Below are positions 56,599-59,289 of a DNA stretch of 64,000 nucleotides, piece after piece. Within the stretch, counting starts at the first letter, position 1. Every line of letters starts with the position of its first letter. The translations under genes and the position numbers were made by a program. The DNA is from Chitinophaga chungangae. Lineage in GTDB: Bacteria; Bacteroidota; Bacteroidia; Chitinophagales; Chitinophagaceae. The notes under the pieces were generated by a model, which worked only from the letters and a program-made list of their open reading frames with translations, ran no database searches and was not told where the DNA came from. The stretch spans positions 992,001 to 1,056,000 of the forward strand of contig NZ_JAGHKP010000001.1 of NCBI RefSeq assembly GCF_017742215.1. The letters are read 5' to 3'.

Positions 56599-57933
56599 TT
56601 AAGCCAGCACCTTGCCTTTCCACCGGCCGCTGCGCAGGTACAGCCATGCCTGTCCGCCCATGGCGGTCCAGTACACGAACTCCGCGCCCCAGGCCCAATG
56701 CAGCGGGCTTCGCCATTTTTCGATGATCACGATGCAATAGGTAAGGTATACCACCACCGAAACAAATTCGATCAGCAGGTTGATGCGCGTGTTGCCGGTA
56801 CCGGTAACGCCGTTGAACGTGACGGCCGTCATGGCAGACAGCAGCATCACTAACGTGCAAACCCTGATGGAAGGGATCGAATCGGTGATGAGCGTCATAT
56901 CTGAAGTATATATCCGCAGCAGCTGGTAAGGGAACAAATTGATGAGCAGGCAAACGAAGCTGGCGCACAGCAACGCGATGCCCATGATCCTTTTCACCAG
57001 TTTCAGCACATCTTCTTCCCGCTGCTGGCCGATAAGGTTGCTCACCATCGTGTTGCAGGTGGAAGCCAGCGCCCAGGTGAATATCCCGAACAGCCCGAAC
57101 ACGCTGCGCATCATGTTAGACACCGCCAGCGGCCGCTGCCCCAGGTGCTCGATGAAAATAAAGAACACCAGCCAGCTGCCGATGCTGAACAGGAACTGCA
57201 CGATCAGCGGCGCGGAAATGGTCAGGATATTTTTGATCGCCTGCCATTCCGGCCTGAAGGTTTCGAACAACCTGAACTTCGCCGGGAATTTCAGGCCGAA
57301 CAGCAGGGAATAAGCCGCTATAAAACCCGTCAGTTCCGCGATAACAGACGCGTAGGCCGCCCCGTTCAGTCCCAGTGCGGGAAGACCGAGATTGCCGAAG
57401 ATAAAACCATAGTCCAGCGTAATATTCACCGCTTCCTGGAAAATGGACGTAATGGCGAGCAGCCTCGTGTTGCCGGTACCGATATAAAATGCGTTGCAGA
57501 GGCTCATGAGCATCAGAAAGGGCAGTCCCCATATCCTGATACGTACAAAATCAGACGCCGCGCCCATAATGGCATGGTCGTGCAGGGAAGCGGAGAAAAA
57601 CGCAGGCGCGAAGGCGTAGGTGATGAAGATGGCGAAGGCGGAGAAGATCAAAGCGAGGAAAAAACCGTTGGAGAAGATCCTGCCCATGCCGCCGTAGTTC
57701 ATTTCACCGGCCCTGCGGGCGAACAGTACCTGCAAGCCGTTGTTCAGCCCGTAGGAGATCATGTGCATGACGAGGTAATATATGCCGGCAATGCCGTTCA
57801 CCGCAAACGGGAATTCCCCGAGATGGCCGAGGAAGGCCGCATTCGTCATATGATTGATCTGGGGCAAAATGAGTGCGAGACATATGGGCCCGGCGATCTT
57901 TATGATCTGCTTATAAGTTAAATTAACTTGCAT
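56599..57933 (-). CDS. MATE family multidrug/sodium efflux transporter
   Basis: A 444-residue inner-membrane protein with 12 predicted helices. Family landmarks are the N-terminal IAGPICLALILPQINHMTNA, GNTRLLAITSIFQEAVNITL, ASTCNTMVSNLIGQQREEDV and FNGVTGTGNTRINLLIEFVS. It exports cationic drugs or dyes with Na+ or H+ antiport. Subfamily (NorM or DinF) is not assigned. It is divergent from the DUF3822 gene across a 480-bp region filled with palindromic repeats. Confidence 0.9.
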   Translation of the reverse strand: MQVNLTYKQIIKIAGPICLALILPQINHMTNAAFLGHLGEFPFAVNGIAGIYYLVMHMISYGLNNGLQVLFARRAGEMNYGGMGRIFSNGFFLALIFSAFAIFITYAFAPAFFSASLHDHAIMGAASDFVRIRIWGLPFLMLMSLCNAFYIGTGNTRLLAITSIFQEAVNITLDYGFIFGNLGLPALGLNGAAYASVIAELTGFIAAYSLLFGLKFPAKFRLFETFRPEWQAIKNILTISAPLIVQFLFSIGSWLVFFIFIEHLGQRPLAVSNMMRSVFGLFGIFTWALASTCNTMVSNLIGQQREEDVLKLVKRIMGIALLCASFVCLLINLFPYQLLRIYTSDMTLITDSIPSIRVCTLVMLLSAMTAVTFNGVTGTGNTRINLLIEFVSVVVYLTYCIVIIEKWRSPLHWAWGAEFVYWTAMGGQAWLYLRSGRWKGKVLA

Positions 57934-58019
57934 ACGTTAGGTGGCGCAAGATACTCAAAACCTTGCTACTGCTGCTTTATAAAGGGAGCAATGTGTTTCG
58001 TCATCTGCTCAATCAGCTT

Positions 58020-58116
58020 CAACGGATGCCAAATTTTTCATAAAAGAAACTGGGCAGTGTTTTTTGAGGCTGCGGGCACAGCTTTTTATAAAATATTCGA
58101 TACCCGTTTCCGCCCC
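58020..58116 (+). repeat. Degenerate copy of palindromic element
   Basis: Starting caacggatgcc, it runs through agaaactgggcag, gggcacagcttttt and ends near cccgtttccgccccg. The same landmarks occur in the same order on the minus strand of the copy at 58272-58370. Here the palindrome is broken by substitutions. Confidence 0.7.
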
Positions 58117-58146
58117 GCTTTTTGAGGGGTGGAGGGTGGAAGATGG

Positions 58147-58173
58147 TCCTGGTACTGCGTTTTTCCTTTTTGG
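58147..58173 (+). repeat. Direct repeat, copy A
   Basis: tcctggtactgcgttttt followed by cctttttgg. It matches 58243-58270 except for one substitution and one extra T. The pair is spaced 96 bp start to start. Confidence 0.75.
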
Positions 58174-58242
58174 ATGCAGAGACCGTTTCAAATGGTGAAG
58201 TTGCAAGGGTGTTTCCGGGGTGCATCATATTATAATTCCTTG

Positions 58243-58270
58243 TCCTGGTACTACGTTTTTCCTTTTTTGG
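58243..58270 (+). repeat. Direct repeat, copy B
   Basis: tcctggtactacgttttt followed by ccttttttgg. It directly abuts the intact palindrome on its left side, suggesting it is part of the same element. Confidence 0.75.
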
Positions 58271-58278
58271 GTTACGGA

Positions 58279-58369
58279 AACGGATGTCTCAAATTTGGTA
58301 AAAAAGCTGTGCCCCCAGCCCCAAAGAACCTCCACCCAGTTCTTTTTTACCAAATTTGAGACATCCGTT
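58279..58369. repeat. Long perfect inverted repeat (27-bp arms)
   Basis: Arm 58279-58305 begins aacggatgtctcaaatttgg and pairs without mismatch with 58343-58369, around a 37-nt GC-rich loop. It lies between divergent genes and cannot be their terminator. The extended element matches the degenerate copy at 58020-58116 in reverse orientation. Confidence 0.85.
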
Positions 58370-58413
58370 GGAGCTTTTTGTTTATTATTGTGCGGATTTT
58401 ATCTTTATCAAAA

Positions 58414-59289
58414 ATGCCCGTGGCATATACCATACAACCCACATACGCGATAGACGACGCCTCCCTGCTGGAGACGGACCTCACTACCTGCACGCTTTTG
58501 GTGCTCATCGGCTCCGGTACGTTCAGTTATGCGGTGATGTCGCCGCTTCAGCGGAAGTTCCTGGCGCTGAAGAGTTACAGTTATCAGCCTAAAACGGTGG
58601 CAATGGCGGACCTGGAGATGATCGAGCACATTTTTGATGCGGACAAGCTCCTTTTCACAGCGTTCAAACAGGTGCTGCTCGCTTTCGATTCGCCGGACAA
58701 TACCCTGGTGCCGGAAACGCATTTCCAGTCCCAGCTGAAAAAGGACTACCTGAGAGCGGTGCTACCGGAAAAGATACATGAGGCCGTATTAAACGACCTG
58801 CTGCCTGAACTGGGCATGGTGAATGTTTTCGCAGTGGATAAGGATATGCTGGGATTCTTAAGAAAGGAATTTTCCACCGACCGCGTGATCCACGCGCATT
58901 CGGCACTGCTGAAAGCCTACGGGGCAGACCGCGATATTCAGCACCCCGAGGGCATCGCCTTCATCGAAGTGGCGCCCCAGCAATTCACGCTTACCATTTA
59001 CGCTGCCGGCAACCTGCAGATGCAACAGCAATACACTTACCGCAGCGGTCTTGATATCGTATACTACATCGTCAATTCCCTGCGACAGCTGGGCTTTGCG
59101 GAGCAGCAGGCCAGGATCAAGCTGGGTGGCGCGCTCACGCAGGATTCCCAGGTATACCAGGAGCTGAACCGCTTCCTGCCAAGACTGGAATGGGCGCATA
59201 AGCCGGACGGGTTCCTGTATATCCCGAAAATGAACGAGCTGCCGCCGCATCATTTCCACAATCTTTATGCACTGGCGTTATGCGTATAA
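58414..59289 (+). CDS. DUF3822 family protein (actin-fold-like)
   Basis: A 291-residue protein of the DUF3822 family, found in Bacteroidota typically next to rsmD and coaD, as here. Recognisable segments are TCTLLVLIGSGTFSYAVMSP, HAHSALLKAYGADRD, and IKLGGALTQDSQVYQELNRF near the end. The two-lobed pattern resembles the actin/ASKHA fold, but ATP-binding residues cannot be confirmed by eye. Function unknown. The ATG at 58414 (MPVAYTIQP) was chosen; an in-frame ATG at 58378 lies next to the palindrome. The 3' end overlaps the rsmD-like gene by 10 bp. Confidence 0.85.
   Translation: MPVAYTIQPTYAIDDASLLETDLTTCTLLVLIGSGTFSYAVMSPLQRKFLALKSYSYQPKTVAMADLEMIEHIFDADKLLFTAFKQVLLAFDSPDNTLVPETHFQSQLKKDYLRAVLPEKIHEAVLNDLLPELGMVNVFAVDKDMLGFLRKEFSTDRVIHAHSALLKAYGADRDIQHPEGIAFIEVAPQQFTLTIYAAGNLQMQQQYTYRSGLDIVYYIVNSLRQLGFAEQQARIKLGGALTQDSQVYQELNRFLPRLEWAHKPDGFLYIPKMNELPPHHFHNLYALALCV

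Follow-up and report, generated by a model that had tools for sequence, protein, structure and literature searches.

A low-copy family of dispersed, inverted hairpins in Chitinophaga, with stems possibly kept perfect by copying between the arms

Results

An inverted hairpin pair between divergent genes

The window analysed here, a stretch of 64,000 nucleotides from Chitinophaga chungangae, carries two palindromic units, inverted relative to each other, between divergent genes assigned by Pfam to MatE and DUF3822 (Table 1). An earlier note had described the block as a composite of two such units, a description that our analysis upholds, and had reported a 27-bp perfect inverted repeat within it. 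This repeat is real and measures 28 bp, with arms at 58279-58306 and 58342-58369 that are 28 nt each, 100% complementary and 35 nt apart; the folding energy of positions 58270-58375 as single-stranded DNA was -30.9 kcal/mol, whereas 200 shuffled sequences gave -9.3 (sd 2.3; z = -9.4). The decayed second copy in inverted orientation that had been proposed is likewise genuine: hairpin A (58015-58112) aligned over its whole length with the reverse complement of 58275-58380 at a local score of 46, against a mean of 8.5 (sd 1.4) and a maximum of 15 among 1000 dinucleotide-shuffled pairs. A direct-repeat pair that the note had counted as part of the block does exist, with copies of 26 nt (58146-58171 and 58242-58267) that are 96% identical and 96 nt apart, but it is placed between the hairpins; a search of the window's own genome with the whole block returned only 15-16-base matches with E above 1, and since the repeat has no significant match elsewhere in that genome we regard it as local.

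Table 1. Positions of the hairpin block and its flanking features in the window
Feature	Position	Strand	Remarks
MatE (MATE efflux) gene	56599..57933	-	Divergent neighbour; named by Pfam
Hairpin A	58015..58112	+	Decayed, arms imperfect; loop AACTGGGC...GGGCACAG on + strand
Internal segment between hairpins A and B	58113..58278		No significant match elsewhere in the genome
Local 26-nt direct repeat, copy 1	58146..58171		Outside the hairpin family
Local 26-nt direct repeat, copy 2	58242..58267		Outside the hairpin family
Hairpin B	58279..58369	-	Perfect; 28-bp arms, 35-nt loop; AACTGGG...CAG motif on - strand
Loop of hairpin B	58307..58341	-	Conserved AACTGGG and CAG ends; unpaired AA beside CTG/CAG
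TATTATTGTGC block	58383..58393	+	Upstream of DUF3822 gene; kept in relatives with or without the element
DUF3822 gene	58414..59289	+	Divergent neighbour; named by Pfam; start picked by comparison with relatives

The possibility that long palindromes are a general trait of this genome was not borne out by a 464-kb sample of its 6.04 Mb (the window and 20 stretches of 20 kb each). Hairpin B was the only palindrome to combine arms of at least 14 bp with a loop of 20-60 nt, the remaining eight palindromes of the sample all had loops of less than 20 nt, and a Markov control sequence of 400 kb gave none.

We then compared the locus among relatives of the same genus, which are designated by G-numbers, with G000 being the window's own genome. 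As the TATTATTGTGC block was found at all 12 of the orthologous loci inspected for it (12 of 30 loci), whether or not a hairpin was present, the element sits just upstream of this block, which may have a promoter role. The start codons of the MatE and DUF3822 genes are 480 nt apart in G000, with two hairpins, 269 nt apart in G003, with one hairpin, and 74-114 nt apart in seven genomes with no hairpin (G070, G012, G060, G032, G071, G033 and G069); no hairpin was seen in the sequence of this locus in G021, G061 and G075. By eye, the G003 hairpin appears to be the outer half of A joined to the outer half of B and thus resembles a collapsed pair, and the element probably entered this locus in a lineage common to G000 and G003. 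The gene context of the window pair is atypical, as most other copies lie at gene 3′ ends by a hand tally.

A low-copy family in a restricted lineage

The earlier note would have been refuted by a genome with no further copies, and this is not what we found. A covariance model built from eight hairpins (R1) identified 11 hairpins in G000, the window's two included, arranged as five pairs (C1:1050k, C1:747k, C8:552k, C8:640k and C11:4k) and a single hairpin on C10; there were 17 R1 matches, six of which were the opposite strand of the same hairpins. G003 also contains 11 hairpins, from 14 model matches in which the extras are again the same hairpins on the other strand, while G021 has three, G071 five and G069 two.

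A second model built from 24 hairpins (R2) was scanned on 79 genomes of the genus, of which 13 were matched at E ≤ 0.01 and five (G000, G003, G021, G071 and G069) had the family loop. The other eight were dropped on inspection, as their palindromes lacked the AACTGGG...CAG loop, and no recognisable family hairpin was seen in the remaining 74 of the 79 genomes, two of them doubtful (G024 and G091). In these two, palindromes near positions 1500-1575 (loci L089 and L091, respectively) have AACCGGG in the loop and are possibly, if doubtfully, distant relatives of the family. Among 396 genomes sampled from the order, three were matched at E ≤ 0.001, namely G000, G069 and one without the family loop. 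Because filtering was stricter in the R2 scans of both the genus and the order, weak copies may have escaped them. On the tree, the five hairpin genomes require two changes, and their hairpins may have a single origin.

Searches of wider collections gave little else. An exact loop pattern, which fits copies of one loop type only, matched four stretches in GTDB genome contigs, a set that may omit the window's own genome; three are in Chitinophaga barathri YLT18, whose contigs are probably G003, and one is in a Nitrospirota MAG and was taken as a chance match. Plasmid and phage collections yielded no match at E 1e-5, and viral contigs 0 matches to one exact loop pattern. No Rfam model matched the window over its gathering score; a lax search gave six matches, all under the gathering score, four of them to microRNA models, to which a long hairpin of any kind may bear a likeness. 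We found no description of this Chitinophaga hairpin element in the literature searched, which excludes most subscription journals. The dispersed hairpin family is lineage-restricted and of low copy number (2-11 per genome).

Other palindromic sequences were observed during this survey. At locus L087 (G085 C5:207k, positions 1461-1626), and also at L085, L086 and L088, terminator-like hairpins lie inside very long perfect palindromes with arms of up to 55 bp and without the AACTGGG loop. At L073 (G003 C21, positions 1190-1331), a palindromic GTCATTGCGAGGAGC...GCAATCTCC repeat lies close to a family hairpin; we presume that it resembles a dispersed repeat of many bacteria.

Anatomy of the hairpins

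Measured on 29 of the 32 hairpins, a set that leaves out window hairpin A, G003 359k and G069 3379k and that also served for the foot counts, length falls between 88 and 102 nt, with a median of 96 and an sd of 3.4. The stem is AT-rich and approximately 30 bp long, and the loop has approximately 34-36 nt. In the AACTGGG orientation, the loop begins with AACT, followed by GGG in most copies, and ends with CAG in nearly all (G71_839a has GAG instead); CTG and CAG pair beside the stem, leaving two A unpaired, and RNAalifold gave no pairing within the loop beyond CTG/CAG. The 12 pairs span approximately 310-490 bp, and AACTGGG points inward from both sides in 11 of them, the exception being G003 C11:678k; single hairpins occur too. 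Pairing between the two loops of a pair was considered and rejected, as the identity of loops at the same locus (0.746) was close to that with other loops of the same genome (0.728).

Pairing ends abruptly at the foot, with the next 15 positions matching 1-8 times. Pyrimidines (TCC, TCCG and others) occupy position +1 of the 3′ foot in 27 of 29 hairpins and positions +2 and +3 in 26 each. The boundary rule forbids no base at +1 other than the complement of the one at -1 and thus accounts for little of the lack of A there; position -1 of the 5′ foot is C in 16 of 29. An alignment of 24 hairpins has no stem consensus in the outer stem and just an A-tract and an AT-rich part in the inner stem.

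Stems change on both arms while loop ends are held

We evaluated the divergence of loops in nine G000/G003 orthologue pairs, in which 61 of 182 positions in the loop middles differ. At the loop ends 10 of 135 positions differ, a count in which nearly half of the positions are trimming anchors, as loops were trimmed to AACT...CAG and those letters are conserved by construction (G71_839a was cut short); conservation of the loop ends is also seen without trimming in the 24 aligned hairpins. Stem sequence is unlike between nearly all loci, and in eight G000/G003 orthologue pairs 92 of 208 stem positions differ.

Despite this divergence, the stems remain paired. Among the innermost 25 stem pairs of 26 hairpins, 645 of 650 were Watson-Crick, five were wobble-type and 0 were other. 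Thirteen comparisons, each between orthologues or copies, gave 142 changed stem positions, of which 138 had changed on both arms. These counts overstate independence and perfection: several hairpins are related as orthologues or copies, and the paired fraction is inflated because the limits of most of the 26 had been set as those of a perfect palindrome. The counts cover 26 of the 32 hairpins and exclude window hairpin A, G003 359k, 14b and 15c, and G069 1452k and 3379k. Across 24 hairpins, 29 of 32 stem pairs have changed on both sides, and the covariation score was 0.808, against 0.174 (sd 0.015) when shuffled and 0.107-0.189 when slid. Taken together, the more divergent stems, the less divergent loop ends and the changes on both arms indicate that stem sequence is free, that the loop ends are constrained and that both arms return to pairing with hardly any wobble intermediates. 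Single-arm mismatches that have not been repaired occur in G071 5786k and G069 1452k, and in a single case the loop, of 34 nt, is inverted relative to the neighbouring gene (G000 640a compared with its orthologue G003 678b).

Template switching during DNA synthesis homogenises arms and inverts spacers, as described in the passages of PMC8604942 and PMC8794818 considered here. The combination of both-arm change and an inverted loop is, as far as sequence comparison can tell, the signature of this process, here on a dispersed element. One may postulate that nothing further is needed, and that the hairpins are inert relics, i.e., old dispersed copies with no role that undergo ordinary quasipalindrome correction and owe their loop ends and length to shared descent. 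Indeed, template switching alone can give perfect arms and an inverted loop according to the same passages (PMC8604942; PMC8794818), and decayed copies exist (window 58015-58112, G003 359k and G069 3379k). Loop ends and foot are conserved, however, while stems and loop middles are not; family length is tight, whereas other kinds of palindrome in sister genomes reach arms of 55 bp; and the 464-kb sample of G000 held no other palindrome of comparable arms and loop. We consider this explanation unlikely.

Position relative to genes

A stop codon precedes 22 of 29 hairpins in the sense direction, with several overlapping, which corresponds to about 11 of 14 distinct gene positions by hand tally. 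Exceptions to this 3′-end position are hairpin B of the window, the copies that lie ahead of a sigma-70 gene in G000, G003 and G021, 640b/678a, and the inverted 678b. Neighbouring genes named by Pfam are MatE, DUF3822, Sigma70, DUF2851, OsmC, FMN_bind_2, DHFR_1 and RtcB, and others read from translations are putative Gfo/Idh, glgB, Mrp, RDD and quinone oxidoreductase genes. We also observed, in three species, an antisense family hairpin directly against or shortly before the start of the same sigma-70-type gene (L029 2877-2911, L061 1595-1596 and L060 1500-1501), the gene being Pfam-assigned in G000 only.

A role in RNA would also explain why so many hairpins follow a stop codon in sense. In such a scenario the hairpin would be transcribed at mRNA ends (AACUGGG in sense), would end or stabilise the transcript in place of an intrinsic terminator, and would have its pairing maintained by selection. 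Terminator-like hairpins seen by eye at two such places in relatives that lack the family hairpin are consistent with this, as are T-rich tails past the foot in G0_747a, G3_14a and G3_61. Wobble-type pairs are rare, however, and four of the five are A-C mismatches on the sense strand; orthologous stems differ more than loop ends do, the exceptions listed above are not at 3′ ends or are inverted, and RNAalifold offered no loop structure past the CTG/CAG pairing. A terminator scan of three loci returned no site over a hairpin loop and T-tract, a result to be read with the scan's loop limit of 3-8, which excludes such hairpins; at locus L030, one of three sites overlaps the foot of hairpin C11_b. 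On balance, we regard an RNA-level 3′-end element as somewhat unlikely.

New sites and the question of mobility

At two compared sites, relatives have no hairpin of the family. The locus between the Gfo/Idh and FMN_bind_2 genes was matched in 71 of 79 genomes, and hairpins were present in five of the 30 loci inspected, as a pair in four and as one hairpin in G069; at the Gfo/Idh 3′ end, G012, G032 and G070 have what appear by eye to be ordinary terminator-like hairpins. G071 carries a second pair, 73.8% identical to that of the Gfo/Idh-FMN_bind_2 locus, between two other convergent genes (L082, C1:1256k, positions 1468-1834); the same place in G069 and G021 is occupied by a plain terminator-like hairpin. 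Short 3′ ends of both donor genes are included in the new segment, and no target duplication was seen by eye in the one comparison made, that of the filled site with G069 and G021. The G071 site is real and new, but these features are more in keeping with patchwork copying or recombination than with a clean transposition event. Given the low copy number and the fact that most G000 sites are common to G003, movement is rare.

The earlier note had likened the layout to REP/BIME or MITE elements and had suggested a search for a RAYT (Y1 transposase) gene. The layout is indeed alike, with inverted hairpin doublets in intergenic space, but membership of a RAYT-driven REP/BIME family fails on three features: the RAYT gene, a shared stem and the foot tetranucleotide. 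In a search of seven genomes, PF01797 (Y1/RAYT) had no match at E ≤ 0.001 in G000, G003 or G021, while five of 14 control genomes and the relative G001 were positive, so the gene was not recovered in the hairpin genomes searched. Outer stem sequence is not shared among copies, and the REP-type GTAG/CGTC tetranucleotide is absent at the foot, which is pyrimidine-rich instead; a nearby GTAG occurs only in G003 14b and 15c, where it lies three bases beyond the foot and on the opposite strand. Were the family a true REP/BIME or classical MITE family that a genome-encoded RAYT or DDE transposase moves, this would account for the inverted pairing, intergenic position and small size of the hairpins, and the two GTAG copies lean the same way. 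Considering the points above, together with the missing target duplication at the G071 site, we view this explanation as very improbable.

Discussion

The explanation that we tentatively prefer is a REPIN-like, non-autonomous hairpin element whose arms are kept perfect by arm-to-arm copying. The window block would, as part of this still provisional account, be a single inverted pair belonging to a dispersed hairpin element that is restricted in lineage and low in copy number, with approximately 96 nt per hairpin. The arms would be kept identical at the DNA level, with replication switching template between them (quasipalindrome correction). The loop ends, the two unpaired A by CTG/CAG, the pyrimidine foot, the length and the inverted pairing could then be features that are, or once were, read by an enzyme, which would act on the folded single strand. 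In its spread the element would behave like a REPIN, with two inverted hairpins occasionally copying themselves to new positions between genes, most of which would be at the 3′ end of a gene. This interpretation must be made cautiously, as Y1 was not detected in G000, G003 or G021, no candidate enzyme was found, and the 34-nt loop compares with inverted spacers of 2-8 nt in the papers cited. We judge the arm-copying part of the explanation to be much firmer than the mobility part. A more specific version, in which a candidate enzyme reads the loop ends and pyrimidine foot, cuts the foot and resynthesises one arm on the other, so that each copy continually rewrites its stem at a fixed length of approximately 30 bp and the loop is sometimes flipped, seems to us quite improbable.

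Perfect stems with paired changes are usually taken as proof of a selected RNA structure. The family provides replicate natural experiments in which this pattern appears better explained by DNA copying between arms, and decayed, single-mismatch, perfect and loop-inverted stages are all seen within it. It would make it possible to measure, in a bacterium, the rate at which template switching occurs and the length of its tracts, and it cautions that covariation alone is insufficient for calling structured RNAs. Should there be an enzyme that reads these two parts, loop and foot, the family would represent a mobile hairpin element with a sequence-free stem; if, moreover, that enzyme measures length, stem sequence would be as free as a spacer and only geometry would be inherited.

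Several known systems share features with the family. Intrinsic bidirectional terminators likewise lie at the 3′ ends of convergent genes and have an A-tract and a T-tract in their arms, but they combine a GC-rich stem with a short loop, whereas the hairpins described here have an unpaired loop of approximately 34-36 nt. The subterminal hairpins of IS200/IS605 elements have an unpaired base in the stem, and this base and a conserved foot are likenesses to our hairpins. As outlined in the relevant part of PMC6006769, the Y1 transposases of these elements recognise hairpins on single strands and, with them, a conserved foot tetranucleotide. The differences are that no Y1 gene was found in G000, G003 and G021, that the hairpins here are mutually inverted and that their stems are far longer.

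The likeness to REPINs is closer, as these consist of two hairpin-forming units that are inverted and intergenic, and the portion of PMC3116915 drawn on here describes a variable spacer in which length and pairing are kept, with compensatory changes, as in our hairpins. In the present family, however, it is the loop ends and foot that are constant and not the stem, there are 2-11 copies per genome rather than hundreds, and RAYT was not found in G000, G003 and G021. REP stems are also given as 5-13 bp in the section of PMC3733652 cited, compared with hairpins of approximately 96 nt and stems of approximately 30 bp here.

Quasipalindrome template-switch sites share the homogenisation of arms and inversion of the spacer. 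In the yeast data reported in part of PMC8604942, inverted spacers are 2-5 bp long and template-switched repeats are shorter-spaced than others; in RNA genes, an excerpt of PMC8794818 gives inverted spacers of up to 7-8 nt and describes stem change and loop inversion occurring jointly as extremely rare. The sites described in these passages (PMC8604942; PMC8794818) are single sites, in sequences unrelated to one another, with short spacers, whereas the hairpins reported here form a dispersed family with constant loop ends, loops of 34-36 nt and near-constant length at locus after locus.
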